Below are positions 5,055-20,872 of a stretch of 23,566 nt of DNA, piece after piece. The notes under the pieces are model-generated. The model was not told where the DNA came from. It was given only the letters and a program-made list of their open reading frames with translations, and did not search any database. Positions within the stretch are counted from its first letter, which is position 1, and every line of letters begins with the position of its first letter. Position numbers and translations under genes: made by a program. Source of the DNA: a virus; IMG/VR virus record IMGVR_UViG_3300044632_001529, positions 1 to 23,566 of that record. One strand, 5' to 3'.

Positions 5055-6125
5055 ATGAAAGTTATTCTTAAAGAGAGTCAATTCGGAAAATTATTGAATG
5101 AAGCTAAAGGTGTTAACGAGGCTTCAATAGAATATGTTAACTTATTATATAAAATCATTGAACCTAAGGTAATTGAAATGATTTCAATTGGTAAAAATGA
5201 TACTGATGAATTTTACGTTGAGGGGAATGAAATTTTAAAAAAATTCAGAAATAATTTAGACACATATTATGAGTTCCCAATAGAATATCTTGACGTTGAT
5301 TTAACTTTTAAAGTTACCAAGAAAAAACCTGAAAACGGGTTAACGTTCTCCACTGGTGGCGCGGCTTATCCAGTTACTCTTGATTCTAGTGGAGGTTCAT
5401 ATCTTAAAGAACCTGATGAAGATTTACCTGTAAAAGTTTTAAAAAATGTAGATAAAACAATCTACGCTAAATTTGAGTTTGAGGTTTATATTAATATTGA
5501 GTTTGATTTTAGTCAGATGAATGAATTATTGTTTGATTTAAGAGATACTATAACTCACGAATTAAATCATATGTACGAATTCTATAATAGAGTTCAAAAA
5601 ACTCCACCTTCTGAAGTTAGTTTAGCAAAATCTTTTTCCGGAGGTAAAAATATTAACACCCCTAAAAAAATATTTAAAGTTTACACCAAGTTTTTAGATT
5701 ATTTATATTATTCTGAACCATGGGAAATAAATGCTAATGTTCAAGAGGCGTATTCTAAAATACTTAGAATGTCATGGGAAGAATTTAAAAAAACAAACCA
5801 ATATAGAATTGCCGATGAGATGGAAAACTATAGTGGTGAAAAAATGTTTGATGAGTTATATAATGCAACAATGGAGAGAAGTCCTGAAGCAGTTCTTTTT
5901 CATATTAGAAATTTACATAAATTTTATTTGAAACAATATTTGGAATATATTGTCGCTGAGAGAGGTGATAAGATTAAAAATGAGGAAGAATTATTGAGAG
6001 ACGAAGTTTTCAAAACTAAAAATATTTTAGAATTGTTTAAAAAGTTTGAGTCAAGAATCAATAACGCAGGTAAAAAGTTAAAAAGAAACTATGCCAGATT
6101 AATGACAATTGAAAGAGATGAATGA
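5055..6125 (+). CDS. Zinc-metalloprotease-like protein with N-terminal tag
   Basis: 356 aa from MKVILKESQF. Residues 1-16 carry the ILKESQxxxLL tag-like segment that recurs in four other proteins here. The middle is beta-rich (~75-155). At residues 165-176, TITHELNHMYEF holds a zincin HExxH motif (HELNH, 168-172), with a downstream WEINANVQEAY segment that could give the third, Glu, zinc ligand, as in gluzincins. The C-terminal 150 residues are helical and charged. A virion-borne peptidase acting on phage or host protein is plausible but unproven. No signal peptide. The next gene overlaps its end by 8 nt. Confidence 0.85.
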   Translation: MKVILKESQFGKLLNEAKGVNEASIEYVNLLYKIIEPKVIEMISIGKNDTDEFYVEGNEILKKFRNNLDTYYEFPIEYLDVDLTFKVTKKKPENGLTFSTGGAAYPVTLDSSGGSYLKEPDEDLPVKVLKNVDKTIYAKFEFEVYINIEFDFSQMNELLFDLRDTITHELNHMYEFYNRVQKTPPSEVSLAKSFSGGKNINTPKKIFKVYTKFLDYLYYSEPWEINANVQEAYSKILRMSWEEFKKTNQYRIADEMENYSGEKMFDELYNATMERSPEAVLFHIRNLHKFYLKQYLEYIVAERGDKIKNEEELLRDEVFKTKNILELFKKFESRINNAGKKLKRNYARLMTIERDE

Positions 6126-6519
6126 TAAATTACATAAAATTAATAAGTTTATCGAAGGTAAAACTTTTGTTTACGACCATGATGTTAGGTTTAATCAAAA
6201 CCCTGTAAAGGTTTACTACCAATTTCATATTGATGGGGTTAAAAGATTGATTTCAATAGGAGAATGGAAAGACCATCTTTTTGTTTCGGTTAAAATTGTA
6301 AATGGGGAAGGGATGGTTAATCTGTATCTTAGTCATTTCAAAAATCAAAGAATTGTGGGAAGAGAGTCAGTTTCTAATAACTGGTTTGAGTTCTCCGTTC
6401 AGACGGGTCAAGATATTGAATCTTTTTTAAATTTTTTTAATATTGATATGAAAGTTGTAATTGATACGATTGAATTTGAACCAAATAAAGATTTTAAATC
6501 ATTTTTAAAAGATGAGTAA
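6118..6519 (+). CDS. Unknown phage protein, 133 aa
   Basis: Start taken at the ATG overlapping the upstream stop by 8 nt (a TTG at 6109 is possible). A compact, probably all-beta protein with a short helical start (KLHKINKFIEG) and alternating strands (KVYYQFHIDGVKRLISIGEW, HLFVSVKIV). No cysteines, signal peptide or known motif. Coupled to both neighbours by end overlaps, so it probably works with the protease-like protein and the tagged protein after it. Confidence 0.8.
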   Translation: MNDKLHKINKFIEGKTFVYDHDVRFNQNPVKVYYQFHIDGVKRLISIGEWKDHLFVSVKIVNGEGMVNLYLSHFKNQRIVGRESVSNNWFEFSVQTGQDIESFLNFFNIDMKVVIDTIEFEPNKDFKSFLKDE

Positions 6520-7003
6520 ATTTATAATTACAGAAGAAGAGAAAAAAAATATTTTATCGCAATATAATTTAATTAATGAACAAGATTACGGAGCTCAAAG
6601 ATTAAATTTGGGGGAGATTTCTGGTAAAACTTACGAATTTTATTTACAACCAGGTAAAAAAAGTGAAGAATTTAAGTTTACAGATTCCTCACAACCGCAC
6701 CCAACACCTAAAGCTTATTTACCAAAAGGTAAAAATAGATTTTTAATTAGTCCAAAAACACTTACTTATTGGAGTGGTGAGACTCAAATGAATTATTCGT
6801 TTGTAACTAAACCAATAACTGATGGTAGTGAAACTTATTCTTCAACTTCTTTATACACTGATAAAAATATGATACAAACGTCTCAATTTTTATTGACAAT
6901 CGCTTATAAGCCGGACTCACCAAAGTCTAAGTGGAGAAATGAAAGATTCTATGCTTACAGTGACGATTTAAAGAATGATATGGTGGCTAACAAATTAATC
7001 TAA
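6512..7003 (+). CDS. Unknown protein with N-terminal tag, 163 aa
   Basis: Begins MSKFIITEEEKKNILSQYNL, a form of the tag shared with four other proteins in the window. After a Gly/Gln linker the rest (about 30-163) is beta-rich with many Tyr and Ser, including a Ser/Pro/His stretch (SSQPHPTPKAY), resembling a small structural domain. No catalytic motif seen. Overlaps the previous gene by 8 nt and is last in that operon; a promoter follows. Confidence 0.8.
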   Translation: MSKFIITEEEKKNILSQYNLINEQDYGAQRLNLGEISGKTYEFYLQPGKKSEEFKFTDSSQPHPTPKAYLPKGKNRFLISPKTLTYWSGETQMNYSFVTKPITDGSETYSSTSLYTDKNMIQTSQFLLTIAYKPDSPKSKWRNERFYAYSDDLKNDMVANKLI

Positions 7004-7004
7004 T

Positions 7005-7035
7005 TTGGATTAATTAGAATTATTTCGTATCTTTG
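7005..7035 (+). promoter_or_regulatory. Bacteroidetes-type promoter
   Basis: TTGGAT at 7005-7010, 17 nt, TATCTTTG at 7028-7035; 8 nt to the next ATG. Confidence 0.7.
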
Positions 7036-7043
7036 TGCTCGTT

Positions 7044-7214
7044 ATGAGTAAAAAAGAACAATACCAACAAATTTACGAGGATGATGAGGCGGTTACCGTT
7101 TGGACTTATGATTTAACGAAGTTCAAGAATGGACCAATCTCTGTTGAGATTAAGTATAAGAATCCACCTGAAAAAAAACAAACCAACCGACAAAAATACT
7201 CCAAAAAGAAATAA
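7044..7214 (+). CDS. Small basic unknown protein, 56 aa
   Basis: ATG 8 nt after a well-formed -7 element; 56 codons, TAA, then 1 nt to the next ATG. An acidic start (QIYEDDEAVTVW) and a Lys/Arg-rich tail (KKQTNRQKYSKKK). No known motif. The promoter and the tight junction with the HAD gene support it as the first gene of a two-gene unit. Confidence 0.7.
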   Translation: MSKKEQYQQIYEDDEAVTVWTYDLTKFKNGPISVEIKYKNPPEKKQTNRQKYSKKK

Positions 7215-7215
7215 T

Positions 7216-7829: not shown

Positions 7830-8534
7830 ATGAAAAAAATAATACTATACACACTAATCTTAATTTTACCAATTTTCATTTGTGCTAAAATTGTAAGTAC
7901 CTATTCAAATGACTATTCATGTGAATATTTTTCTATTAAGTCTAGTAATAAGTTTCACGTAATTACTTTTAAAAAAGATAAAGTTAAGTTTGGAGTTTCA
8001 AACTCTACAAAAGGTAACTTTAATTTTTATGTGAATTCAAATTTCTTTGGTACCAATGGTAAAGCCATCGGTGGAGTTGTGATGGATGGTAAAAGAAAAA
8101 GTCAAAGAGTTAATAAAGGAGGGTCATTCATTGTTAAAGATGGTAAACCAAATATTGTTTTTGGTTCAGTGGATAATTGTCAGTATGAATCTCAAAGTAT
8201 TATATGGGTTTTAAAAAACGGAGTAAAGAATACTGGTATGTTAAAACAACCACATGCTAAAGAAAAAGTTATGCGTCTTTTGATGGGTAAAAACAAAAAA
8301 GGTGAAATTGTTGTAATCCATTCTAATCAATATATTTTAGTAACAATGTCTGAAATAGTTAATGTAGCGGTTGATAATGGAGTGACAGATGCTATAATTT
8401 TAGATAGTGGTTCTTCTGTTGATTTAATGTTAACTAACGGAAGTTTTTCACATAGTGTGAAGTCAGTACCTTCTGAAATTAAAGGTTTGGTTGGTATTAA
8501 AGAACCACCTGTTTACATTACAGGGTCTTTTTAA
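7830..8534 (+). CDS. Exported phosphodiester-glycosidase-like protein
   Basis: 234 aa. An N-terminal hydrophobic segment (residues 3-19, ILYTLILILPIFICA) indicates export or membrane anchoring. The rest matches the NAGPA / phosphodiester glycosidase family: VNSNFFGTNGKAIGG, GGSFIVKDGKP, and near the C-terminus AIILDSGSSVDLM, where the family usually has LDGGGSS. The family removes N-acetylglucosamine from phosphodiesters or acts on exopolysaccharide. In a phage, modification of host envelope glycans during or after infection is a reasonable guess. Its 3' end overlaps the convergent lytic transglycosylase gene by 4 nt. Own leaderless promoter. Confidence 0.8.
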   Translation: MKKIILYTLILILPIFICAKIVSTYSNDYSCEYFSIKSSNKFHVITFKKDKVKFGVSNSTKGNFNFYVNSNFFGTNGKAIGGVVMDGKRKSQRVNKGGSFIVKDGKPNIVFGSVDNCQYESQSIIWVLKNGVKNTGMLKQPHAKEKVMRLLMGKNKKGEIVVIHSNQYILVTMSEIVNVAVDNGVTDAIILDSGSSVDLMLTNGSFSHSVKSVPSEIKGLVGIKEPPVYITGSF

Positions 8535-9418
8535 CCACAAGTGAATCTTTTAATATTTTTTGCAACTTCTTTAACATAACCGTGAGTTGAGATGTTTACA
8601 CTATCCCATCTTTCGGTTGTGTAGTTTGGTAGATAATTAACGGCTTTTTTATCTTTATAAATTTGAAGACCTGACTTTGTTTGTGAGTCAGAACATTTAC
8701 CTTTAATTTTTGGGTCAGTTGTTTCACAATACGGTGTAATATAAGATGGACCCAAATTAAAAGTTGCAATTGCCATATCTAAAGCCGCATTACCGGTCCC
8801 CTCTTTAAAATTAGAGGATGGTTGATTCTGAGCATATCCGATACTAACTAGTTTGTCGTAATTATTTTTAATAATATTGTATGCTGCCCTTAAAGACCCT
8901 ATAGTTGTATATAAATCGTCGACTGGTATTCCAATCTCCTTGGCTGTTTCAGGTCTTATTTGTGCGTATCCAATAGAACTATCACCACCTAATTTTTGCC
9001 ATAATTGTTTAAGTGGGCCTAAATATTTGTATCTATCACTTGTCCCAAAGGTGGTTTCTCTACCAATGATTCCTAAAGCAGTCTTTAAAATATTGGTATT
9101 TAAACCTTCTTTTTTTAGAGTAAAATAAGCGTGTCTGAAAAGATAAGGAATACAGGCAATTTGTTGATATTTAGAAGTCAATATAGTTGGAACTGGACTA
9201 CCATCCTTCATTATTGGATTTTTATTTTTATCTAATTCTTTTGGGTACTGTTGTTCTGAATATGACGGAAAAAGTTTTTTTGCTTCAATTCCTTGATAAG
9301 GTCCGTTTATCAAAGTGTAACCACCTTTTTTATTAGATTGATAAACCCATTGTTCATTTAAAACTTTTTTAACTAATTTAACAATGTCTGATTCTGTAAG
9401 TTTGATAATTCTACTCAT
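8531..9418 (-). CDS. Lytic transglycosylase (SLT-like) with N-terminal tag
   Basis: 295 aa, the only minus-strand gene. The start is the ATG at 9416-9418 giving MSRIIKLTESDIVKLVKKVL, the clearest copy of the shared tag; upstream in-frame sequence is low-complexity Phe-rich and is rejected. The domain at ~110-230 has GIIGRETTFG (likely catalytic E121), SIGYAQIRPETAKEIGI (compare GxMQxxPxTA of Slt enzymes) and a late AIATFNLGPSYI (compare AYNxG). It should cleave the glycan strand of peptidoglycan. The absence of a signal peptide and the presence of the tag favour a virion-carried enzyme used at DNA entry. Confidence 0.88.
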   Translation of the reverse strand: MSRIIKLTESDIVKLVKKVLNEQWVYQSNKKGGYTLINGPYQGIEAKKLFPSYSEQQYPKELDKNKNPIMKDGSPVPTILTSKYQQIACIPYLFRHAYFTLKKEGLNTNILKTALGIIGRETTFGTSDRYKYLGPLKQLWQKLGGDSSIGYAQIRPETAKEIGIPVDDLYTTIGSLRAAYNIIKNNYDKLVSIGYAQNQPSSNFKEGTGNAALDMAIATFNLGPSYITPYCETTDPKIKGKCSDSQTKSGLQIYKDKKAVNYLPNYTTERWDSVNISTHGYVKEVAKNIKRFTCG

Positions 9419-9464
9419 AATTTTATAAATATTTGATAACTTAAAAAAAAATGTATGATACACC

Positions 9465-10318: not shown

Positions 10319-11047
10319 ATGAATATGAATTACGGAAAAGAGTTTAGAAAGTATGCTATGAGTGAGGGGATTTCCTCGTTGAATTTGGATAGATTTGAAA
10401 ATGCTTTAACACCTTATGTGTTAGAGGAAAGAGAATTAAGAGCGACTCAGATTGATATCTTCTCACGATTAATGAGAGAAAGAATTTTGTGGGTATCGGG
10501 AGCGGTTAACCAACATATGTCAGATATTGTTCAGGCTCAGTTGTTATTTTTGGACTCGGTTGAACAACGTGATATTACATTATACATTAACTCACCTGGT
10601 GGTTCGGTTCTTTGTGGACTAGGAATTGTTGATTTGATGAACTATATTAAGTCAGATGTTGCAACAACAAATATTGGAATGTGTGCGTCTATGGGGTCGG
10701 TCTTACTATCATCAGGTACCAAAGGTAAAAGGTCATCTCTAGTGTATTCAAAAGTAATGACACATCAGGTAAGTCACGGAACCGAAGGAAATGTTCAGGA
10801 CACAAGAATTAATCAAATGGAGGCTGAGAAATATAACTACATTTTGTTTAAGATGATTGCCGAGAATTGTGGTAAAACGGTTGAGGAAGTGTTGGAGGTT
10901 TCAAGAAGAGACAAATGGTTCAACTCGGATGAGGCAAAAGAGTTTGGTTTGATTGATGAGGTAATTAAGAGTGAGGGAACCAAAACAATTTCTGAGATGT
11001 TAGTAGGTTTTGATGACTACTACAACAAGGAAGTTTTTAATAGATAA
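10319..11047 (+). CDS. clpP: ClpP-type serine protease
   Basis: 242 aa. Catalytic Ser124 (GMCASMGS), His149 (KVMTHQVSHG) and Asp198 (RRDKWF) have the same spacing (25 and 49 residues) as Ser97, His122 and Asp171 of E. coli ClpP. YINSPGGS at about 89-96 and EFGLIDEVI further support the family. ClpP forms a barrel that degrades proteins, usually with an AAA+ unfoldase; phage ClpP-like enzymes can also serve as prohead maturation proteases. No scaffold, portal or capsid gene is adjacent, so the role is open. The N-terminus is about 25 residues longer than mature host ClpP. ATG 10325 is an alternative start. An aberrant tRNA follows 8 nt downstream. Confidence 0.93.
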   Translation: MNMNYGKEFRKYAMSEGISSLNLDRFENALTPYVLEERELRATQIDIFSRLMRERILWVSGAVNQHMSDIVQAQLLFLDSVEQRDITLYINSPGGSVLCGLGIVDLMNYIKSDVATTNIGMCASMGSVLLSSGTKGKRSSLVYSKVMTHQVSHGTEGNVQDTRINQMEAEKYNYILFKMIAENCGKTVEEVLEVSRRDKWFNSDEAKEFGLIDEVIKSEGTKTISEMLVGFDDYYNKEVFNR

Positions 11048-11055: not shown

Positions 11056-11130
11056 GAAGAAGTAGCTCAGCAGGTAGAGCATAGGGACAGAAATCCCTTG
11101 TGCCGCGAGGTTCGATTCCCGCCTTCTTCA
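11056..11130 (+). tRNA. Aberrant tRNA, anticodon not assignable
   Basis: Good acceptor stem (GAAGAAG/CTTCTTC), A73 then C, and a normal D arm (GCTC/GAGC). The anticodon stem AGGGA/TCCCT leaves a 6-nt loop CAGAAA without U33 (an 8-nt loop is the alternative). The T stem GCG(A)GG/CCCGC has a bulged base. By comparison with tRNA-Phe the loop could be a GAA anticodon with one base lost. It may be defective, or made by editing or a special function. Confidence 0.7.
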
Positions 11131-11135
11131 CTCTT

Positions 11136-11163
11136 AAAACCGAAGATTTCTTCGGTTTTTTTT
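11136..11163 (+). terminator. Intrinsic terminator after clpP-tRNA unit
   Basis: AAAACCGAAG/CTTCGGTTTT, perfect 10 bp with ATTT loop, followed by a T tract. Confidence 0.9.
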
Positions 11164-11192
11164 GTTTTAGTAAAAATAATTTTGTAAATTTG
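11162..11192 (+). promoter_or_regulatory. Bacteroidetes-type promoter
   Basis: TTGTTT at 11162-11167, 17 nt, TAAATTTG at 11185-11192; 19 nt to ATG 11212. Confidence 0.6.
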
Positions 11193-11211
11193 TAGAAATA
11201 AATAATGGACT

Positions 11212-11430
11212 ATGAAAGGTTGGTATGAAACAATGTTATGGGTAATCGGTGTTATTGACTCTTGTACCCATCCCATACAAGATATCGCTTGTCGAAAACT
11301 TGTAAAAAATTATTTAACCATGTATGGGAAACAATTAGGTGGACCGACGGGTGATTTATACAGGGCGACAGAACAACGTTTAAGAACGGCAATTGATGAA
11401 AACAGATACAATAGATTAATCAATCAATAA
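11212..11430 (+). CDS. Small unknown protein, 72 aa
   Basis: Follows a promoter and ends 9 nt before the endolysin gene. The first 20 residues are moderately hydrophobic (WYETMLWVIGVIDSCTHP), then a polar helical region rich in Arg (RATEQRLRTAIDENRYNRL). It might be a membrane-associated accessory lysis protein given its neighbour, but that is only context. No family recognised. Confidence 0.7.
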   Translation: MKGWYETMLWVIGVIDSCTHPIQDIACRKLVKNYLTMYGKQLGGPTGDLYRATEQRLRTAIDENRYNRLINQ

Positions 11431-11439
11431 AATAATATT

Positions 11440-12012
11440 ATGTATAAATTAAATCATGATTCATTAGAGTTTGTTAAGGTAAACAAATTTAAATTCTTTT
11501 CAAAGATTGGAGTTGTAACAATTACAATGGCTATCCTATCATCACTATTCACCTTTTTTTGGACTAAATCTCATATCGTAGAGACGATGACTGAGTATGA
11601 AAAAGTATTGTTGGTAGAAGAAGTTAACAAATTCTCGGAAGACAAGATGGTTGAAAAAATCAAAGAACTTGGATTTAAATATCCACACGTTGTTATGGCT
11701 CAAGCAATCCTTGAGACTGGTAATTTTAAGAGTCCTGTTTTCCAAGAGAACCATAACTTATTTGGAATGAAAGAAGCCACAAGCCGATTGAATTTGGCAA
11801 AAGGAACCCAAAATAATCACGCATCATATGCAAATTGGGAAGATAGTATTTTGGATTATGCATTGTGGTGTTCAACATACGCAAACAAAGCACAATCAGA
11901 GGACGAGTATTTCCAAATCTTAAATAGTCTTGGTTACGCTGAGGACGGGACATACGAAATGAAACTAAGAGAAATTATTAATAAGTACGATTTAAAGAAT
12001 AAGTTTAGTTGA
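11440..12012 (+). CDS. Membrane-anchored glucosaminidase (endolysin candidate)
   Basis: 190 aa. A single N-terminal transmembrane or signal-anchor segment (residues ~23-41, IGVVTITMAILSSLFTFFW) follows a basic tip. The catalytic domain (~75-185) matches the FlgJ-type glucosaminidase family: VVMAQAILETGNF (catalytic E92), NHNLFGMKEA, and ASYANWEDSILDYALW. It should hydrolyse N-acetylglucosaminyl bonds in peptidoglycan from the periplasmic side. The anchor suggests Sec-dependent delivery without a classical holin. This is the likeliest lysis enzyme in the window. Confidence 0.9.
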   Translation: MYKLNHDSLEFVKVNKFKFFSKIGVVTITMAILSSLFTFFWTKSHIVETMTEYEKVLLVEEVNKFSEDKMVEKIKELGFKYPHVVMAQAILETGNFKSPVFQENHNLFGMKEATSRLNLAKGTQNNHASYANWEDSILDYALWCSTYANKAQSEDEYFQILNSLGYAEDGTYEMKLREIINKYDLKNKFS

Positions 12013-12026
12013 TGTATTTATAGAAT

Positions 12027-13719: not shown

Positions 13720-13726
13720 CTTAATT

Positions 13727-13880: not shown

Positions 13881-13881
13881 T

Positions 13882-14113: not shown

Positions 14114-14186
14114 GCGGGTGTCGTATAACGGCTCATTATGTCACTCTTCCAAAGTGAAGACGGGGTTTCGACTACCCCCACCCGCT
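14114..14186 (+). tRNA. tRNA-Gly(UCC)
   Basis: Acceptor GCGGGTG/CACCCGC, anticodon stem TCACT/AGTGA with loop CTTCCAA, T arm GGGGT/ACCCC (a T-A rather than G-C pair next to the loop), T73 then C. Confidence 0.92.
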
Positions 14187-14192
14187 CTTTTT

Positions 14193-14265
14193 GGCTCCAT
14201 GGTTGAATGGCTACAATGCCGGCTTGTCACGCCGTGTGGTACGGGTTCGAATCCCGTTGGAGCCG
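14193..14265 (+). tRNA. tRNA-Asp(GUC)
   Basis: Acceptor GGCTCCA/TGGAGCC, anticodon stem CCGGC/GCCG with loop TTGTCAC, T arm ACGGG/CCCGT, G73. The only tRNA here followed by a full CCA (14266-14268). Confidence 0.92.
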
Positions 14266-14274
14266 CCAAAGAGG

Positions 14275-14322
14275 AGTAACTTGCGTAGGTGCCTCAGGGG
14301 ACTGCAGCCCCACTACGCTCCA
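14275..14322 (+). ncRNA. Compact hairpin RNA between tRNA-Asp and tRNA-Gln
   Basis: GCGTAG (14283-14288) pairs with CTACGC (14313-14318). An inner GGGG/CCCC stem closes a 7-nt loop ACTGCAG, which reads like an Ala (UGC) anticodon loop with C33. Not a full tRNA. Confidence 0.4.
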
Positions 14323-14325
14323 TAT

Positions 14326-14396
14326 TGTCCCTTCATCTAATGGCAGGATATCAGATTTTGATTCTGAGTATGTTGGTTCGAATCCATCAGGGACAA
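14326..14396 (+). tRNA. tRNA-Gln(UUG)
   Basis: Acceptor TGTCCCT/AGGGACA, anticodon stem TCAGA/TCTGA with loop TTTTGAT, T arm GTTGG/CCATC (one mismatch), A73 then C. Confidence 0.92.
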
Positions 14397-14403
14397 CTTT
14401 TTT

Positions 14404-14434
14404 TTGTTTTATTAATAAACTTGCTTTATCTTTG
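14404..14434 (+). promoter_or_regulatory. Promoter, leaderless
   Basis: TTGTTT at 14404-14409, 17 nt, TATCTTTG at 14427-14434; ATG 4 nt later. Confidence 0.75.
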
Positions 14435-14438
14435 TCCT

Positions 14439-14861
14439 ATGGAAAAAGAATTTGTTACATACGAAATTGCTTCAGAACTCAAGAAACTTGGATTTGATGA
14501 ACCTTGTTTAGTAGGATATAGCTCCTCAACCGAAAAGTTAGAGTATTATTCAAGACCGCTTGTTACAAAAGATTCATTTACTGTTGACACACCAACCTAC
14601 TCACAAACTTTCAGATGGTTTGAAGAGAAGTATTCATACTTTGTGGATGTTAAAACTGACACCACACCAAATGAGATTTTGGGATTTGACTATACGATTA
14701 AGAGTTGGAAGTTCCCACCGATGTATTTTGATTTCTTCAAAGATAAGAGAGAAGGGAACATTGAGGTAATCAAGAAGATGATTGAGATGGCGAAGAAAGA
14801 GAAACAAAAGGAGATTCTTATTGATTTAATGAATATGGATGATGACGATAAAAATAAATAA
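14439..14861 (+). CDS. Conserved-looking phage protein, 140 aa
   Basis: Start MEKEFVTYEIASELKKLGF, 4 nt after the -7 element; longer upstream reading runs through tRNA-Gln and is rejected. KLGFDEPCLVGYS near the N-terminus resembles a motif of small uncharacterised proteins common in Bacteroidetes phages. Then FRWFEEKYSYFVDV and a very charged C-terminal helix ending DDDDKNK. No known activity. The next gene begins 1 nt after its stop. Confidence 0.85.
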   Translation: MEKEFVTYEIASELKKLGFDEPCLVGYSSSTEKLEYYSRPLVTKDSFTVDTPTYSQTFRWFEEKYSYFVDVKTDTTPNEILGFDYTIKSWKFPPMYFDFFKDKREGNIEVIKKMIEMAKKEKQKEILIDLMNMDDDDKNK

Positions 14862-14862
14862 T

Positions 14863-15165
14863 ATGACACAGAAACAACAAGACGCTATTGATAGTATAAT
14901 GGATTACTTCAAGTTTGAACAAGTCCAAAAAGTAATGGAATCATTAAATTGGGAGTGGGCGGCTTCTGAAGAAGGTATCCCAACTGTACCTGAATTGAGA
15001 CAAGAAGCAAGACGATTATTAAAGATGGCGTTTAAAGAAAAAACAAATGTATCAACAGGAGGGTTCCACGTTAAGTATGAATCGGATGAAGATGGAGAGT
15101 TTATTCAATTATTATTTGCGGTTGATGAATGGTATGAAGAAATTGAAAAAGATTTGGTAGATTAA
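14863..15165 (+). CDS. Conserved-looking phage protein, 100 aa
   Basis: Start MTQKQQDAIDSIMDYF, 1 nt after the previous stop. Helical N-terminal half (KVMESLNWEWAASEEG, PELRQEARRLLKMAF), then a strand pair STGGFHVKYESDEDGEFIQLLF and an acidic tail. It looks like a folded accessory protein seen in similar phages; function unknown. Probably paired with its upstream partner. Confidence 0.85.
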   Translation: MTQKQQDAIDSIMDYFKFEQVQKVMESLNWEWAASEEGIPTVPELRQEARRLLKMAFKEKTNVSTGGFHVKYESDEDGEFIQLLFAVDEWYEEIEKDLVD

Positions 15166-15184
15166 AAAACTTACCATATCTTTG
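15154..15184 (+). promoter_or_regulatory. Promoter of the second tRNA array
   Basis: TTGGTA at 15154-15159, 17 nt, TATCTTTG at 15177-15184. The first tRNA-like gene begins 4 nt later, so its 5' end may be the transcription start. Confidence 0.7.
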
Positions 15185-15188
15185 TCGG

Positions 15189-15303
15189 AGTCAGGTGGGT
15201 GTAATGAGGGACGGTCCCAAGTCCTAAGAGCTAGTGGGTCTCGACACTTGGAGATTCCATTAGAAGTAAGGTTACTTATCCGGTTCGAGTCCGGCCCTGA
15301 CTA
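15189..15303 (+). tRNA. Oversized class II-like tRNA (115 nt)
   Basis: Perfect 7-bp acceptor AGTCAGG/CCTGACT, T arm CCGG/CCGG with loop TTCGAGT, A73 then C, and a variable-arm hairpin AAGTAA-GG-TTACTT. Between them are ~25-30 nt more than a normal class II tRNA. One fold gives stem CCAAGT/ACTTGG around a 23-nt loop starting CCTAAGA (Leu UAA-like, with C33); another puts GTG/CAC as the D stem with an insertion in the D loop. Identity unclear. Confidence 0.55.
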
Positions 15304-15440
15304 CAATGAGTAAGAGATACTCAACAGTCTTTGGTCCAAGACTCATTTAACAATGGACTCGGTATAGACTGGGAAATGCCGATAGTACCCAGCCGTGGAG
15401 TAACGGTCCTGACACACCGCCACGTAGTCTGACTTTTTTT
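15304..15440 (+). ncRNA. Mini-cloverleaf RNAs and U tract
   Basis: AATGAGT (15305-15311) pairs with ACTCATT (15341-15347), enclosing GAG-ATA-CTC and CTTxGG/CCAAG hairpins, like a 43-nt tRNA without an anticodon arm. Next, CTGGG/CCCAG and CCGT/ACGG hairpins lie inside GGA/TCC, then AGTCTGACT and seven T at about 15427-15441. Confidence 0.45.
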
Positions 15441-15520
15441 AACGGGGATGCCCAGCAGGTTTTTACAAATAGGAAAAAACCGATATGACTACTCACCATA
15501 ATCTCAGGGTGGGGAACTTT
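15441..15520 (+). other. Short spacer with a hairpin
   Basis: Contains GGTTTTT/AAAAACC around 15458-15481. No convincing ORF. Confidence 0.35.
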
Positions 15521-15607
15521 GGAAGGCTAAAGCGTAATTGGTATCGCCCCGGTCTTGAAAACCGGTATCGGGAAACTGATGTGTTGGTTCGAGTCCAACG
15601 TCTTCCG
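15521..15607 (+). tRNA. tRNA-Ser(UGA)
   Basis: Acceptor GGAAGGC/GTCTTCC, anticodon stem CCGGT/ACCGG with loop CTTGAAA, variable hairpin TCGG-GAAA-CTGA, T arm GTTGG/CCAAC, G73 then C. Confidence 0.93.
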
Positions 15608-15614
15608 CTTATTT

Positions 15615-15697
15615 ACCCCTTTGCTGGAATTGGTAGTCAGGGTGGTCTTAGAAACCATTGTCTTAAAGACGTGTAGGTTCGACTCCTACAAGGGGTA
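15615..15697 (+). tRNA. tRNA-Leu(UAG)
   Basis: Acceptor ACCCCTT/AAGGGGT, anticodon stem TGGT/ACCA with loop CTTAGAA, variable hairpin GTC/GAC, T arm GTAGG/CCTAC, A73 then C. Confidence 0.92.
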
Positions 15698-15698
15698 C

Positions 15699-15796
15699 AA
15701 AACACATAAACTCAAGTACCCATACTGAGGACGGTGGGCTAAGTAAGATACAATTCCGTCATGCAGGGAGTAGAATGCTTGAGAGTGTGTTTTTTA
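15699..15796 (+). ncRNA. Structured RNA closed by stem into U tract
   Basis: AACACA (15701-15706) pairs with TGTGTT (15786-15791), CTCAAG (15711-15716) with CTTGAG (15778-15783), and GACGG (15730-15734) with CCGTC (15756-15760). Five T follow the outer stem, so it may act as terminator and RNA at once. No tRNA fold. Confidence 0.6.
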
Positions 15797-15800
15797 CACG

Positions 15801-15874
15801 GTGTCTATTGACAAGAGGTTTAAGTCGCCTGATTGTGGTTCAGGTCATCGAGGGTTCGAATCCCTCTAGACACA
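15801..15874 (+). tRNA. tRNA-His(GUG)
   Basis: Acceptor GTGTCTA/TAGACAC, anticodon stem CCTGA/TCAGG with loop TTGTGGT, T arm GAGGG/CCCTC. A G precedes position 1 (the G-1 of tRNA-His), opposite A73; C follows. Confidence 0.92.
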
Positions 15875-15878
15875 CATT

Positions 15879-15966
15879 GGAGAGTAAAGGAGGGTAATGG
15901 TGACCCCGACTGTTTGCTAAACAGTAACCCATTAAGTTGGGCGTGGTTCGAGTCCACTGCTCTCCG
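15879..15966 (+). tRNA. tRNA-Ser(GCU)
   Basis: Acceptor GGAGAGT/GCTCTCC, anticodon stem ACTGT/ACAGT with loop TTGCTAA, long variable hairpin CCCA/TGGG, T arm GTGG/CCAC, G73 then C. Confidence 0.93.
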
Positions 15967-15970
15967 CTTT

Positions 15971-16043
15971 GCCCCTGTAGTTCAATGGATTAGAACCTAT
16001 CGCTACGGACGATAAAATGGAAGTTCGAATCTTTCCGGGGGCA
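15971..16043 (+). tRNA. tRNA-Arg(ACG)
   Basis: Acceptor GCCCCTG/CGGGGGC, D arm GTTC/GAAC, anticodon stem TATCG/CGATA with loop CTACGGA, T arm GGAAG/CTTTC, A73 then C. Confidence 0.93.
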
Positions 16044-16081
16044 CAACTATCAACGATGTATTTATGTCTTGAGCGATATTT

Positions 16082-17665
16082 ATGAGCATGAGAACAATCC
16101 TATTTTTCCTATTATTAATTCCCAATATTGTCCTTTCACAATGTGTTGGGGTCCAATCTTTTACATTAACTCCATCACCTACTAATGGGACTTACGAACC
16201 TGGAACTGTTGTAACTATGTGTTACACAATGAACGGTTGGAATGGAACTAACTTCGGGTCTAATTGGATTGAAGGGTTCGGATTAACTTTGGGACCGGGA
16301 TGGGTATCACATAGTCCTATTTCAGGACCTGATGATTGTGGAGGTGCGGTACTACCTCAACAATGGTTATGGTCTGAAAGTGTTACAAATAATGCAGGAA
16401 CATTAACTGTTGGACCGGGGTATTTCTATGAGGGACCTCAAGGGACTATTGATGGGAACCCTGGTAATGATTGGGGGGATTTTGGTCTTGATTGTTTATG
16501 GTCTTTTTGTATTCAATTACAAGTTACCGATGAATGTGACCCTTTATCTTTATTGATAGAAGTCACACCATACGCTGACGGAACTATGGGAAGTTGGGGA
16601 ACCGAATCTTGTTTTGATGCTCCGTTCCAAGTTTTCAATGGGACTGTTCTTGGAGGAGATGTGGTGACCTCACCCATTGATGTTCCAATGGATACGGTAT
16701 GTGTTGGACTTGCTGATACATACTCAGTCGTAAACACTGTTGGTTCAACATATGATTGGACTATTTCTGGTGGAGGTACTATGACTGAAAACGGAACAAA
16801 TACCATTGATGTTGAATGGGGTGGAGTACCAGGTGATTATGTAATATCGGTACAAGAGACAACTGTTGATGGATGTATTGGTGATATTATTGATACAACA
16901 ATAACTGTCGCGGATACTTTAATTACCTTTGGTCAAGACAATATTGGTATCTGTTTGGAAGAGACCGTTCAACTATCTGCAAGTCCTTCAGGAGGATTTT
17001 GGAATGGGGAAAATTTGGTTGGAAATGTTTTTACAGGATTTAATTCAGGTACATATCACCCATCATATTTTGTTAACATACATGGATGTCCTGTTGTGGA
17101 TTCCGTTGAGATTTATGTGAGACCGAAGTTTGAAGCTCCTGAAATATTTGCTCAATCAAACTTCATTGATTTTTGTACTGACCCTTATAACCATACTTAT
17201 TTGGCTCCTGATAGTGTTGGTATTGAATATACTTGGCATGTTGATGGTGTTTTACAACCTGATACTGACTTTGAATTAAATGTTCTTTGGCCTGACACTA
17301 CTATGGACCATATCATTACAGTCTATGGGACTGATACTTTGGGATGTGAGAGTGAGTTAAATGCTATTACCATTAGAACAAACACTTGTCATAGGTTATA
17401 TGTTCCAAATTCATTCACACCAAATAATGACGGGTTTAATGACGTATTTAAAATTGCTGGTATGTCAGTCTATGAACCTAATATGAAAATTTTTAATAGA
17501 GATGGTATGATGGTTTATAATATTAAATCATTAAGTCAAACTTGGAATGGTGATGATGGTAGTGGATACTATTGTCAGACAGGTGTTTATAATTGGATAA
17601 TGACATACAGAGACGATAGGGGAATTGGTCATGTAGAAAGAGGTCAAGTTATTTTGATTCGTTAA
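16082..17665 (+). CDS. Secreted T9SS-type protein with CHU_C sorting domain
   Basis: 527 aa (start MSMRTIL or ATG 16088). Residues 3-20 are a Sec signal peptide (RTILFFLLLIPNIVLS). A Cys-, Gly- and Trp-rich beta domain (~21-190) is followed by PKD/Ig-like modules (~205-350, e.g. STYDWTISGGGTMTENG) and another beta module. The C-terminal ~85 residues are a typical gliding-motility-associated / CHU_C (T9SS type B) domain: VPNSFTPNNDGFNDVFKI, MKIFNRDGMMVYN, WNGDDGSGYYCQTGVYNWIMTY, ending RGQVILIR. Such proteins are exported by the type IX secretion system and placed on the cell surface or released. It is flanked by tRNAs on both sides. Possible roles are blocking superinfection or altering adhesion; it could also be a gene taken from a host. 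Confidence 0.9.
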   Translation: MSMRTILFFLLLIPNIVLSQCVGVQSFTLTPSPTNGTYEPGTVVTMCYTMNGWNGTNFGSNWIEGFGLTLGPGWVSHSPISGPDDCGGAVLPQQWLWSESVTNNAGTLTVGPGYFYEGPQGTIDGNPGNDWGDFGLDCLWSFCIQLQVTDECDPLSLLIEVTPYADGTMGSWGTESCFDAPFQVFNGTVLGGDVVTSPIDVPMDTVCVGLADTYSVVNTVGSTYDWTISGGGTMTENGTNTIDVEWGGVPGDYVISVQETTVDGCIGDIIDTTITVADTLITFGQDNIGICLEETVQLSASPSGGFWNGENLVGNVFTGFNSGTYHPSYFVNIHGCPVVDSVEIYVRPKFEAPEIFAQSNFIDFCTDPYNHTYLAPDSVGIEYTWHVDGVLQPDTDFELNVLWPDTTMDHIITVYGTDTLGCESELNAITIRTNTCHRLYVPNSFTPNNDGFNDVFKIAGMSVYEPNMKIFNRDGMMVYNIKSLSQTWNGDDGSGYYCQTGVYNWIMTYRDDRGIGHVERGQVILIR

Positions 17666-17683
17666 AATTTTAACTTATATTTG
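17654..17683 (+). promoter_or_regulatory. Promoter of tRNA-Cys
   Basis: TTGATT overlapping the end of the T9SS gene, then TATATTTG at 17676-17683; tRNA-Cys begins 11 nt later. Confidence 0.6.
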
Positions 17684-17694
17684 TATTCACAAAA

Positions 17695-17766
17695 GGTCGG
17701 ATGTCTGAATGGTTTAAGTCGGACTCTGCAAAAGTCCTTATGTTGGTTCGATTCCAACTCCGACCT
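17695..17766 (+). tRNA. tRNA-Cys(GCA)
   Basis: Acceptor GGTCGGA/TCCGACC, anticodon stem GGACT/AGTCC with loop CTGCAAA, T arm GTTGG/CCAAC. T73, the Cys discriminator, then C. Confidence 0.93.
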
Positions 17767-17776
17767 CAAATTTATT

Positions 17777-17806
17777 TTGTAAGTTCAACTTTTTAAACTA
17801 TCTTTG
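17777..17806 (+). promoter_or_regulatory. Promoter, leaderless
   Basis: TTG at the -33 position; TATCTTTG at 17799-17806; ATG 4 nt later. Confidence 0.65.
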
Positions 17807-17810
17807 TCCT

Positions 17811-18335
17811 ATGAATATTTTCTTCTTGGATTGGGACACCGAAAAATGTGCAAAGTATCATTGTGATAAACACGTGGTTAAAATGATATTGGAAACTGCT
17901 CAACTATTGTGTGGAGCCCACCATGTAACCCCCCAAGTACCCACCAAGTACCCACCAAGTACCGACCAAGTAAACGACCAAGTACCGTACAAGTTATCTC
18001 ATAAGAATCATCCTTGTGCTATTTGGACTCGTGAGAGTTTAAGTAATTATCTTTACCTATGTGATTTGGGTCTTGAGTTGTGTAAGGAATATACGTACCG
18101 ATATGGTAAACGTCATAAATCACAGGACGTTATTGAGTGGTGTATCACAAATAAGTTAAACATTTGTGATAAAGGTTTTACTGAGCCACCTAAGGCAATG
18201 CCTGATGAATATAAAGTATCTGACGTGGTTGAGTCCTATAGAAATTATTACCGTGGGGCTAAGTCAGGGTTTGCGGTATGGAAAAATAGAGAAACACCCG
18301 AGTGGTATAAAAACGAAGAATATGTCTTGTTGTAA
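17811..18335 (+). CDS. Conserved-type phage protein, DKHVVKM motif
   Basis: 174 aa, starting 4 nt after the -7 element. N-terminal FFLDWDTEKCAKYHCDKHVVKM, then NHPCAIWTRESLSNYLYL, EYTYRYGKRH, PPKAMPDEYK and YRNYYRGAK...WKNRETPEW. This arrangement is that of an uncharacterised family seen in large phages; conserved Asp, His and Lys suggest an enzyme, but I cannot name the reaction. Codons ~42-60 derive from an 11-nt tandem repeat (17934-17995) that looks like an insertion. The next gene overlaps its end by 14 nt. Confidence 0.85.
   Translation: MNIFFLDWDTEKCAKYHCDKHVVKMILETAQLLCGAHHVTPQVPTKYPPSTDQVNDQVPYKLSHKNHPCAIWTRESLSNYLYLCDLGLELCKEYTYRYGKRHKSQDVIEWCITNKLNICDKGFTEPPKAMPDEYKVSDVVESYRNYYRGAKSGFAVWKNRETPEWYKNEEYVLL
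17934..17995 (+). repeat. 11-nt tandem repeat inside a coding region
   Basis: CAAGTA recurs at 17934, 17945, 17956, 17967 and 17979, and as CAAGTT at 17990: spacings 11, 11, 11, 12, 11. The unit is about CCAAGTACCCA. Since 11 is not a multiple of 3, each unit is read in a different frame; the single 12-nt unit brings the total from 17934 to 17979 to 45 nt. Confidence 0.9.
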
Positions 18336-18495
18336 AGAATGTCCTTGGAAGGTGGAAAATAACCACAACCAAAAATTAAAAGAATTTGTTAATAGAACTG
18401 GTAGAAAACACACCTGTCATATGGTGAACCCAAAACTTTGGGACACGTCCAATGAGAAACAAATTTGTAAGGGAATTGAAGAAATATTTGTGTAA
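18322..18495 (+). CDS. Small Cys-rich protein, DUF6283-like
   Basis: 57 aa starting MSCCKECPWKVENN. The CCxxCPW start and a later HTCHM provide Cys and His ligands for one metal ion, as in DUF6283 (CxxCP...CH) phage/bacterial proteins of unknown role. Overlaps the upstream gene by 14 nt, so probably translationally coupled. A longer upstream reading is only the shadow of that gene. Confidence 0.75.
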   Translation: MSCCKECPWKVENNHNQKLKEFVNRTGRKHTCHMVNPKLWDTSNEKQICKGIEEIFV

Positions 18496-18518
18496 CTGAA
18501 AAAATTGTATTATCTTTG
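18488..18518 (+). promoter_or_regulatory. Promoter, leaderless
   Basis: TTGTGT at 18488-18493 overlapping the previous stop, 17 nt, TATCTTTG at 18511-18518; ATG 4 nt later. Confidence 0.75.
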
Positions 18519-18522
18519 TCGT

Positions 18523-18726
18523 ATGAAAAATAAAGTTTGGCACAAAGTAACAATCTCAACAGAAGAGCAAGAAGTTGAGGTATACCCAACTGAGACGTAT
18601 AATGGAATCATCGTTGAAACAAAAGAGTTGGATGGTTCAGATAGTCCTCGTATGTACCTCAATATAGATGAAATGGAACTATTGATTTCCAAAATGAGAG
18701 AGATGATGGAATATGTTAAAAAATAA
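18523..18726 (+). CDS. Small unknown protein, 67 aa
   Basis: MKNKVWHKVTISTEEQEVEV..., beta strands followed by a C-terminal helix (IDEMELLISKMREMMEYVKK). Soluble and acidic. No domain recognised. Its leaderless promoter overlaps the end of the Cys-rich gene; an oversized tRNA starts 4 nt after its stop and is presumably on the same transcript. Confidence 0.8.
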   Translation: MKNKVWHKVTISTEEQEVEVYPTETYNGIIVETKELDGSDSPRMYLNIDEMELLISKMREMMEYVKK

Positions 18727-18730
18727 AGAT

Positions 18731-18836
18731 GCTCAGGTGGCGGAAGCGAGGTAATCATGTAATTCCCGATGGATAGACGCTAGGGTAACCTGCCCGAGTC
18801 AGAAATGACGTGAAGGTTCAAGTCCTTCTCTGAGTA
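18731..18836 (+). tRNA. Oversized class II tRNA with D-loop insertion (106 nt)
   Basis: Acceptor GCTCAGG/TCTGAGT (two G-U), D stem GCG/CGC with Leu-like flanks (GCGGAA...GGATAGACGC), variable hairpin GTCA-GAAA-TGAC, T arm GAAGG/CCTTC, A73 then C. The D loop has ~22 extra nt forming a GGxAAT/ATTCC hairpin. The anticodon stem CTAGGG/CCCGAG (one mismatch) leaves loop TAACCTG, with A in place of U33. Identity unclear; body resembles tRNA-Leu. Confidence 0.6.
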
Positions 18837-18907
18837 CAAACCCAACCAAGGGCAATGCGGGCTCATACCTGCGGAGCAAGGTGACGGTCAGGAAAGACTG
18901 ACAACAT
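18837..18907 (+). ncRNA. Hairpin-rich spacer between two odd tRNAs
   Basis: GCGGG/CCTGC closes a 6-nt loop CTCATA (like a Met CAU loop missing one base); ACCC/GGG lies before it and GTCAG-GAAAGA-CTGAC after it. That last CTGAC could instead pair with the acceptor GTCAG of the next tRNA. No acceptor stem found. Confidence 0.4.
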
Positions 18908-18983
18908 AGTCAGGTGGAAGAGTTGGTACTTCGCTCGGTGGGTAACTGCCGAGAGGTCATAGGTTCGAGTCCTATTCTGACTT
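18908..18983 (+). tRNA. tRNA with enlarged anticodon loop
   Basis: Acceptor AGTCAGG/TCTGACT, D arm GAAG/CTTC, T arm ATAGG/CCTAT, T73 then C. The anticodon stem CTCGG/CCGAG leaves a 10-nt loop TGGGTAACTG (8 nt if T-G pairs). GGTAA suggests a Thr (GGU) ancestor with three extra bases. Frameshift-suppressor-like or non-functional. Confidence 0.7.
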
Positions 18984-18996
18984 CAAAAAAAAAGGT

Positions 18997-19218
18997 ATGA
19001 AAAGAATAATTTTAATATTAGGTATCGGTATGTTTTTAACTGGTTGTTCAGATAAAACCACCATATCCCAAGACACGGAGATGCTACAAACAAAGTACCC
19101 TAATGGTGTTGTGTATAGAATAGATAGCGAAAGATATATAGTTATTGATTCGTTACACGCTTTAGATATTCGTGTTAATTTATCGGGAGAGATTACGTCA
19201 ACTGTAAAAATAAAATAG
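18997..19218 (+). CDS. Small lipoprotein, 73 aa
   Basis: N-terminal KRIILILGIGMFLTGCSDK: a lipoprotein signal peptide with lipobox LTGC (Cys17). The mature part is ~57 residues with two or three predicted strands (VVYRIDSERYIVIDSL, VNLSGEITSTVKIK) and no known domain. Phage lipoproteins often block superinfection or take part in lysis (spanins), but nothing specific is visible. It starts 13 nt after a tRNA and may be cotranscribed. Confidence 0.82.
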   Translation: MKRIILILGIGMFLTGCSDKTTISQDTEMLQTKYPNGVVYRIDSERYIVIDSLHALDIRVNLSGEITSTVKIK

Positions 19219-19257
19219 TTAGGTATTACGTAATGTGAAAGCGTACTACAAAAAAAT

Positions 19258-19288
19258 TTGTGGGGTAAAGTATTTCGCCTTATCTTTG
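19258..19288 (+). promoter_or_regulatory. Promoter, leaderless
   Basis: TTGTGG at 19258-19263, 17 nt, TATCTTTG at 19281-19288; ATG 4 nt later. Confidence 0.75.
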
Positions 19289-19292
19289 TGGT

Positions 19293-19775
19293 ATGAATAA
19301 CGAAATAAAATACATACCTACAAAAGATGCGATTATTGGATACAGTGATTCTAAAATCGCTCAGAGTGAGAGTAATGATTGTGTCGTTAGAGCTATTGCA
19401 TCTTCGTTTGAAATGCATTACGACGAAGCTCACAAGTTTGTTGCAAAAACTTGGTTTCGTGAAAATCGTCAGGGAACAAGAAACTTTGTTGGAGGTATGA
19501 GAAGTATGGTTAGAAAAGGAAGTTTGATTAATGGTAAATCATTCTCCAATTTGGGTGACCAAAACGGGAATATGAAATATGATGTTAAGGTTAAAGGTGA
19601 GATTGTTAAACGAAGCATGACCACAGGAACTTTCATTAAGAAATTCCCAAAGGGTAAATATCTTGTTGTTGTTCGTGGACACGCTTTCTCAATCATTGAT
19701 GGAGTTGTTGTTGGAAACACAGGTGATGCTAAAATGAAAAAAAGAATTATCTTGTATTCTTGGGAAGTTAAATAA
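19293..19775 (+). CDS. Papain/C39-like cysteine peptidase-like protein
   Basis: 160 aa. SESNDCVVRAIASSF has a likely nucleophile Cys30 at the start of a helix, and RGHAFSIIDGVVVGN has His130 followed by Asp136, the order and spacing of papain-fold peptidases and transglutaminase-like proteins (C...H...D/N). No signal peptide. Whether it cleaves proteins is unknown; a role in processing a phage or host protein is possible. Leaderless promoter directly upstream. Confidence 0.8.
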   Translation: MNNEIKYIPTKDAIIGYSDSKIAQSESNDCVVRAIASSFEMHYDEAHKFVAKTWFRENRQGTRNFVGGMRSMVRKGSLINGKSFSNLGDQNGNMKYDVKVKGEIVKRSMTTGTFIKKFPKGKYLVVVRGHAFSIIDGVVVGNTGDAKMKKRIILYSWEVK

Positions 19776-19783
19776 GATTTTTC

Positions 19784-19814
19784 TTGACACGAGAGTATTT
19801 ATTACTTACCTTTG
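19784..19814 (+). promoter_or_regulatory. Strong promoter of the third tRNA array
   Basis: TTGACA at 19784-19789, 17 nt, TACCTTTG at 19807-19814, then TAAAACAA as at the giant-RNA promoter. Confidence 0.85.
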
Positions 19815-19859
19815 TAAAACAATTCAGGAACGACTGAATGTTAAATTGAAATATTAAAT

Positions 19860-19933
19860 CGTGGGGTAGAGCAGATGGTCAGCTCGTTAGGCTCATAACC
19901 TAAAGGTCGCAGGTTCGAATCCTGTCCCCGCAA
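19860..19933 (+). tRNA. Initiator tRNA-fMet(CAU)
   Basis: Acceptor CGTGGGG/CCCCGCA with the C1xA72 mismatch of initiators, D stem GAGC/GCTC giving A11-U24 (also initiator-type), anticodon loop CTCATAA, A73 then C. The anticodon stem has only two of the usual three G-C pairs next to the loop. Confidence 0.9.
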
Positions 19934-19936
19934 CTA

Positions 19937-20048
19937 AGAGATAGAAGTAAGTTTCACCTGTTGCAGGCGACATAAAGTAAGATTCACAACTTGACTGGTC
20001 GTTACTTCTTATAGTGGAAAATGTGAACACTATGAGCTATCTTTTTTA
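19937..20048 (+). ncRNA. Three-helix RNA closed by stem into U tract
   Basis: AGATAG pairs with CTATCT just before TTTTT; AGAAGTAA pairs with TTACTTCT (8 bp, sharing AG with the first stem); ATAGTG pairs with CACTAT. Same general plan as the RNA at 15699-15796: closing stem, inner helices, U tract, between tRNAs. Confidence 0.6.
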
Positions 20049-20051
20049 AAC

Positions 20052-20126
20052 GCTCGGTTCGTCTAGATGGCTTAGGACATCCCCCTTTCACGGGGAAGGT
20101 CACGGGTTCGAATCCCGTACCGAGTA
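20052..20126 (+). tRNA. tRNA-Glu(UUC)
   Basis: Acceptor GCTCGGT/ACCGAGT, anticodon stem TCCCC/GGGGA with loop CTTTCAC, T arm ACGGG/CCCGT, A73 then C. Confidence 0.93.
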
Positions 20127-20132
20127 CTACAT

Positions 20133-20214
20133 TGTGGTGTTGAGCAATTGGTTGGCTCGCCTGTCTGTAAAACAGGTTCCTATGGACTTGGCGGTTCGAG
20201 TCCGTCCACCACAA
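20133..20214 (+). tRNA. tRNA-Tyr(GUA)
   Basis: Acceptor TGTGGTG/CACCACA, D arm GAGC/GCTC, anticodon stem CCTGT/ACAGG with loop CTGTAAA, variable hairpin TCC/GGA, T arm GGCGG/CCGTC, A73 then C. Confidence 0.93.
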
Positions 20215-20528
20215 CAAAAACACGACGAAGATAGGATTAAAAGCTCCTGTTATTACGACACCAAAACACAGTACGAGTGCGCGCTTAACGACTGTTGCGG
20301 TGAGGAGGGAATAAGTAGGGTTTAGCTAACCCAATTACGAAAACCTCATAACAATAATAAAGACCACCAAACTCCGGTGGGGTAATAAAATGTTTGGGTC
20401 GGATGTGGATGATGCTTCCACGCAGTGTTTTGAAACTAAATAACCAACTTTAAAAAGGGCGCTTCCTGAAATATTGGCTCGCTGGGCCCGAGTTTGTTAA
20501 ACCCCACCCCAAAAGAGTGGGGTTTTTT
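20215..20528 (+). ncRNA. Structured RNA after the last tRNA (~310 nt)
   Basis: No believable ORF. Hairpins: GGGTT/AACCC (near 20317-20332), CCACC/GGTGG (near 20364-20380), GTGGA/TCCAC (near 20405-20423), CTCG/CGAG (near 20478-20491), then the terminator. It is likely the 3' part of the transcript from 19807. No known RNA class recognised (not tmRNA: no tag ORF or tRNA-like end). Confidence 0.55.
20500..20528 (+). terminator. Terminator of the third tRNA array
   Basis: AACCCCAC/GTGGGGTT, perfect 8 bp, followed by six T. Confidence 0.9.
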
Positions 20529-20551
20529 ATTTACAACTATATTTATCAATA

Positions 20552-20872
20552 ATGAAATATCTAATAACTGAATCTCAATTTGATAATATTGTATTTAAGT
20601 ACCTTGACAATCAAGACTTTGTTACCATGGAATATGGGACTTATGAGTATTTTCTTAATTCAGAGAATGATGAATACGCTCAAATTAAATTTAATAAAAG
20701 TAGCCGTTGGTGTACCATAGAAAAAGAATTAATGGTTGAAATTGCTTCTTTCTTTTCTTTAGAATATCACGAAGCTATGTCACTTATTGGTAAATGGGTT
20801 GAAAATAAGATTGGGGTAGAATTTAACACCCTCGAAACCCAATCGGACATAATTGTACGTTATTTTAAATAA
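20552..20872 (+). CDS. Unknown protein with N-terminal tag, 106 aa
   Basis: Starts MKYLITESQFDNIVFKYLDN, nearly the same tag as the protein at 12027 (MKYVITESQ). The rest is a small mixed alpha/beta domain (IKFNKSSRWCTIEKELMVEI, LEYHEAMSLIGKWVENKIG). No motif recognised. It stands alone between two terminated units; no clear promoter visible in the 24-nt gap after the terminator. Confidence 0.8.
   Translation: MKYLITESQFDNIVFKYLDNQDFVTMEYGTYEYFLNSENDEYAQIKFNKSSRWCTIEKELMVEIASFFSLEYHEAMSLIGKWVENKIGVEFNTLETQSDIIVRYFK

Follow-up and report, generated by a model that had tools for sequence, protein, structure and literature searches.

Five proteins encoded by IMG/VR virus record IMGVR_UViG_3300044632_001529 begin with a common N-terminal tag, which we read, with a probability of about 0.78, as a T4-like capsid-targeting propeptide. 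The DNA analyzed (the window) is a viral fragment of 23,566 bases, in which 34 open reading frames (ORFs) were scored and which contains no head module. Our reading is based on a modular and swappable tag, on the hydrophobic-x-E sequence with which many tags end, and on relatives that encode a gp21-type protease together with a major capsid protein (MCP) bearing a matching site. Capsid-targeting sequences (CTSs) as a kind are already known from T4. In the proposed mechanism the N-terminal 16–23 residues of unrelated cargo proteins would attach to the scaffolding core as the prohead grows, whereby the cargo would be enclosed. The S77 prohead protease would then cut after the Glu of the hydrophobic-x-E at the tag end, as when trimming the MCP, and the mature cargo would stay in the head and enter the next host together with the DNA. 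Core binding, cleavage, packaging and injection are steps that we infer from sequence.

A common N-terminal tag on unrelated proteins

An earlier note, made from the letters of this DNA, had described a shared tag on five unrelated proteins. We confirmed these N-termini at 5055, 6512, 12027 and 20552 on the plus strand and at 9418 on the minus strand; the starts at 5055 and 9418 are internal to longer, mechanically called ORFs. A position-specific scoring matrix (threshold 10 bits) was trained on four relatives of 208–321 kb (G002, G004, G006 and G007) without the window. It picked exactly the five named proteins, with 30.5 (20552), 27.2 (6512), 26.2 (12027), 24.0 (9418) and 16.0 bits (5055), while the sixth-best of the 34 ORFs scored 0.3 bits. 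None of 680 shuffled N-termini and none of 68 internal Met windows from the window reached the threshold. In the relatives, 39 of 406, 42 of 375, 26 of 245 and 31 of 302 N-termini (~10%) scored at least 10 bits, compared with 3 of 1114, 3 of 1192, 1 of 835 and 0 of 758 internal Mets (0–0.3%) and about 0.1–0.16% of shuffled N-termini; these counts are partly circular, since the relatives trained the matrix, and the window is the true hold-out. A similarity count that needs no training likewise gave an excess of N-terminal pairs, with 92, 61, 58 and 57 versus 8, 0, 0 and 4 internal ones.

After removal of the first 30 residues, 143 tagged proteins fell into 100 families, and the five of the window into five separate ones, in line with their being unrelated. 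A tag spread over 100 unrelated families has to be regarded as a module. In a 100-member tag alignment, M1 and E9 alone are nearly invariant. The 17 copies of MKY[IL]ITES are written in 16 distinct DNA spellings, and of seven residues tested, five (T, E, S, K, Q) have the same codon choice within the tag as in the remainder of the genes; codon choice differs weakly for Leu and clearly for Ile (p 9e-7). The varied spellings and gene-typical codons indicate that conservation acts on the peptide.

Tag swapping and the nature of the cargo

Homologous cargo proteins carry differing tags or none. Examples of swaps (the arrow marks the predicted cleavage site) are MKYIISENQYNFLLE↓GLHDTSWQNEEGDK versus MNLQEQISRIQSMMGVINE↓GLHDTSWENEEGDK, where GLHDTSW follows the site on both, MKKIIRLTESQLISLVKRVINE↓SDPKDGTGKKP versus MNLQENINRIKEMMGVITE↓GKDPKTGTGKKP, and MRRVQRLTERDLTRLVRRVLRE↓EDDRKFCHGGNVKS versus MGTKRFTITESEIKSIKKLYMME↓QSEEKEDRKFCHGGNVRS; MKYIITERQYRVISE↓EVNPRIKEIIFNKLLNDMKG has a counterpart without a tag on the same contig, which starts MNDRIKKIIFDKLLNDMKG. 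The tags are exchanged for short amphipathic peptides that have little in common except the hydrophobic-x-E end. In 52 swap pairs selected automatically, the aligned sequences are 15% identical before the site, 24% over the ten columns that follow it and 46% farther on, a profile that places the swap point at the site or a little downstream of it. When all swap pairs are put to a strict junction test, the result is noisy, with BLAST extending through similar helices and the sites being guessed by pattern.

Known domains are few among 100 tagged proteins; they include M23, C39, lysozyme, GH19, TseH-like, YkuD, LysM, OmpA, HNH endonucleases and RNA ligase. A few domain-bearing cargo proteins, e.g. 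a sigma factor, may be false tag calls. Fe/Mn superoxide dismutases of these phages (G006 138446, minus strand; G004 58955, plus strand) have variable N-terminal extensions ending in FINE↓M or LITE↓M and are possible virion cargo; the former, at a borderline 13.4 bits, was left uncounted as a firm tag.

Tag ends and the prohead protease

Many tags end in hydrophobic-x-E, usually followed by Q, N, S or G. The strict pattern (hydrophobic-x-E[QASGN] at residues 10–38) is found in 68 of the 143 tagged proteins versus 24.3 ± 4.2 after shuffling, i.e. about three times more often, and in 20% of untagged ORFs. Position P3 of these 68 sites is I in 33, L in 23, M in 6, V in 5 and F in 1, although the pattern itself demanded a hydrophobic residue there. 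Hydrophobic-x-E closes four of the five tags in the window (LINE↓Q, VLNE↓Q, LLNE↓A, IIKE↓M), the 20552 family being the exception.

A Peptidase_S77 (gp21-type) match was obtained in all ten large records first searched, relatives and megaphages with G007 among them, and eight of these matches lie above the curated cut-off; a gp23-type MCP was obtained in all eight records tested. When the set was widened to 33 tag-bearing records, S77 was present in 17. A test for the MCP in five of the remaining 16 found it in none, as expected of partial records. In Prevotella phage Lak-B5 (492862–493179) the Peptidase_S77 match runs through two TAG codons, consistent with TAG reassignment.

The MCP N-terminus reads ...NQAS(H/Y)LINE↓A or S at residue 60, conserved in G002, G004, G006 and G007. 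The last of these (208,634 bases), the closest near-complete relative of the window with homologues of 22 of its 34 ORFs at a mean identity of 66.6%, encodes a gp21-type protease and a gp23-type MCP that has LINE↓S where the T4 protein is cleaved. Reading T4 with the same script gave ...FLTE↓A for gp23 and IAE↓A, ITE↓A, LIE↓T and LLRE↓S for core and vertex proteins, T4's own cleaved N-termini differing from one another. In Flavobacterium phage immuto, the nearest isolate found, the corresponding sequences are IAE↓A in the protein at the scaffold position, LLTE↓S in the protease and IVSE↓A in the MCP. Tags also occur on genes that flank the MCP gene, in G002 on five consecutive ones of the same strand. 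The modular sorting signal of the earlier note, which it had imagined to serve packing into the virion or removal by a protease, therefore gains support from these genomes, with packing and cleavage as its predicted parts.

Tag classes and dialects in other phages

Several tag classes coexist: MKYIITESQxxxLxE, MxKIIKLTESDLxRIVKKVIKE, MxxFxITExEKxxILxxY/H...LxE, MNLxENIxRIKExMGxxxE and short MxxLIKKVLKE forms. The pattern MKY.ITESQ[FY] at a start codon was found in 90 IMG/VR stretches and the form M..IIKLTESDL in at least 120. The bacterial genomes scanned gave no exact-pattern match to MKY.ITESQ, which argues against a host or common prophage feature. The 634-kb megaphage LR745206 is nearly without the window's tag and has a dialect of its own, MK[YH]L[KR]x[FY]... 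(also written MKYLKxF..E), on 127 of 882 ORFs (14%) versus 2 of 2385 internal Mets. Its homologue of the 5055 protein bears the local tag, MKYIKPYSNFSINE↓AVGLAEATL. A simple hydrophobic-x-E test gave no clear excess over shuffles for the megaphage tag (69 versus 62.9 ± 5.3), perhaps due to an E- and F-rich region; the case for a cleavage site is thus made by the MCP site (W01, ...FHSINE↓N) and by resemblance to T4. A third dialect, MKLxExKLRKIVKEEI, occurs in LR756508 (16 in one cluster), and immuto has a small one, MKKSQLRxIIKE; N-terminal clustering of RM378 revealed no tag dialect. The same clustering showed that LR756508 also encodes, between 53491 and 198365 (loci L380–L388), five similar proteins of 430–440 amino acids (aa), four of which begin with M(K/R)LTKTLKFKL...; this repeated family is perhaps a transposon-type nuclease.

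Comparison with known head-targeting systems

In T4, a 10-residue N-terminal propeptide brings about head entry of IPIII and of foreign proteins; targeting depends mainly on its residues 4 and 7, and processing on residues 8 and 10 (PMC9026906, PMC9958956). Asp in place of the Glu prevents processing there but leaves targeting intact (PMC9026906). The tags of the window differ in sequence from the IPII/IPIII propeptide, whereas the megaphage tag keeps positions 4 and 7 (L/I in 120 and F/Y in 120 of 127, respectively). The T4 CTSs (IPI, IPII, IPIII and Alt; cut by gp21) share with the present tags the placing of a short N-terminal peptide with a hydrophobic-x-E↓ end on unrelated proteins, and a gp21-type S77 protease with a gp23-type MCP of matching site in the genome family, a likeness drawn here from genome sequences. 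However, the tags described here have other and longer sequences (16–23 aa) and form several classes per phage, they occur on roughly one ORF in ten (14% in the megaphage) rather than on a handful of proteins, and homologous cargo changes tag class.

The head propeptides of phiKZ and SPN3US (cut by gp175 and gp245, respectively) are similar in having Glu at P1 and in the many head cargo proteins of giant phages (PMC9026906, PMC5694885), but follow an S/A-x-E motif and are mostly far longer, in contrast to the I/L-x-E and gp23-type MCP found here. Judging mainly by the MCP sites, the present motif is not of the phiKZ type. The N-terminal signal of P1 DarB delivers its own protein, and likewise a reporter, to the head (PMC9024508); unlike the present case, this is a single protein without a family of short tags.

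Alternative explanations

Several observations weigh against a capsid-targeting propeptide. The strict hydrophobic-x-E[QASGN] end is absent from about half of the tagged proteins, 20552 included, and the gradual climb of identity behind the site means that many junctions are not exact and include a variable linker. The cell-wall hydrolases and HNH endonucleases among the cargo are not obvious head cargo. The window is a fragment without head genes, for which protease and MCP have to be extrapolated from G007, and we found no virion proteome for these phages in the literature. Some of this would suit a tag that docks proteins on another part of the virion (baseplate, tail or outer head) or on an assembly chaperone, its hydrophobic-x-E end being incidental: the M23, C39, lysozyme, GH19 and TseH-like cargo could belong to a tail, and the strict site is missing from part of the tagged set. 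We nevertheless consider docking unlikely, given the threefold excess of hydrophobic-x-E ends over shuffled tags and their match to the MCP site, the same kind of end in the scaffold and protease region of immuto, and the swapping of tags for amphipathic peptides that share little beyond it. An intracellular signal unrelated to the virion (for localisation, for degradation by the phage's own ClpP, whose gene starts at 10319, or as an anti-defence decoy) would find an argument in the position of this ClpP homologue between tagged genes. It fails to predict the site common to the MCP, the head-gene neighbourhood and the T4-like tag of the megaphage, and we judge it distinctly improbable.

An effect at the nucleotide level, by which the start-codon sequence would aid late or leaderless expression or a start-region cassette would recently have been duplicated, draws on the element TATTTAT. 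This lies 0–20 nt upstream of the start in 83 of 138 tagged genes, mostly at 4–6 nt, and in 148 of 950 that are untagged (Fisher p 3e-27). The 16 encodings of 17 MKY[IL]ITES copies and the ordinary codons for T, E, S, K and Q make this explanation even harder to sustain than an intracellular signal. A Sec or lipoprotein export signal, suggested by the cell-wall hydrolases, is the least probable of all and scarcely credible: the tags, as read directly, are charged, with E/K/S throughout and no hydrophobic core, and export-like signals of immuto (MKKLFLLL...) form a separate group in the same clustering run.

The tagged proteins of the window and their surroundings

The 5055 gene (5055–6125, plus strand) encodes a 356-aa HELNH metallopeptidase-like protein with the tag MKVILKESQFGKLLNE↓A (5055–5102) and a predicted cut after E16. 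This residue is invariant in 13 homologues, the remaining tag residues being variable. The metalloprotease-like character proposed by the earlier note agrees with a HE-x-N-H that is invariant in the family, but no Pfam fold match was found and a PDB fold search of the model returned nothing below E 0.001. The note had also described the tag as a strand followed by a helix; the AlphaFold2 model of this protein contains a low-confidence helix at residues 7–17 (predicted local distance difference test, pLDDT, about 50–69) but no strand, and the body becomes confident from about residue 21, after the tag. The 163-aa protein at 6512 (plus strand), without assigned function, carries MSKFIITEEEKKNILSQYNLINE↓Q (6512–6580), for which the cut is predicted to follow E23 (LINE↓Q). 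Beside it, an untagged protein is encoded at 6109–6519 (plus strand) whose homologue in G007 (187305-) is tagged, i.e. a tag was gained or lost.

On the minus strand, the 295-aa protein at 8531–9418 has the tag MSRIIKLTESDIVKLVKKVLNE↓Q (9353–9418; predicted cut after E22), which is near-identical in a homologue sharing just 40% identity over the whole length. It is possibly a lytic transglycosylase, as the note had proposed; this assignment is unproven, with neither a Pfam nor a PDB sequence match and an AlphaFold2 model of mean pLDDT 38.7 (four sequences). The 183-aa protein at 12027–12578 (plus strand) begins with MKYVITESQHRQIIKE↓M (12027–12074; predicted cut after E16). The tag MKYLITESQFDNIVFKY (20552–20602, plus strand) of the 106-aa protein at 20552–20872 has no clear hydrophobic-x-E end, and its large paralogous family may be a special case; tandem copies occur in relatives (L086 2873–4220), and certain paralogues are untagged.

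TATTTAT stands 5–6 nt before four of the five tagged genes: at 5043–5049, 12015–12021 and 20540–20546 on the plus strand, 5 nt before the starts at 5055, 12027 and 20552, and at 9425–9431 on the minus strand, 6 nt before that at 9418. Of ten untagged genes with the element, one matches a connector, another a virion structural protein and a third a peptidase, the others having no assigned function. TATTTAT may be a late promoter giving nearly leaderless transcripts. It also occurs at 16077–16083, preceding the start at 16088 of a secreted protein (16082–17665, plus strand). In addition to an apparent signal peptide this protein has a type IX secretion domain (CHU_C; E 8.3e-17), and homologues are encoded by G007 (72%) and by the megaphage (36%); it points to a Bacteroidota host. 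The ClpP gene (10319–11047, plus strand) encodes a protein 62.5% identical to ClpP of LR745206; few other window genes are common to both. Nineteen tRNA genes lie at 11056–20215, with odd anticodon calls for two (11056 and 18908).

Implications

We think it somewhat more likely than not that large T4-related phages, likely of Bacteroidota, have a general head-loading system, in which lineage-specific N-terminal dialects mark dozens to more than 100 proteins (10–14% of ORFs) for injection and cargo genes change dialect by tag swap. Tag families, their scale and swapping were not found in the literature searched, which misses most subscription papers; motif strings, huge-phage capsid targeting and immuto proteomics likewise gave nothing relevant, and two jumbo-phage reviews are silent on capsid targeting. 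The injected proteins of a phage are hard to know, and proteomics is usually needed. Should the tags prove to be signals for entry into the capsid, the set of proteins that huge phages inject could be read from sequence, with about 26–42 injected proteins per relative of 200–320 kb and about 127 in the 634-kb megaphage. Nearly all of these are unannotated, and they would be candidates for host takeover or counter-defence.

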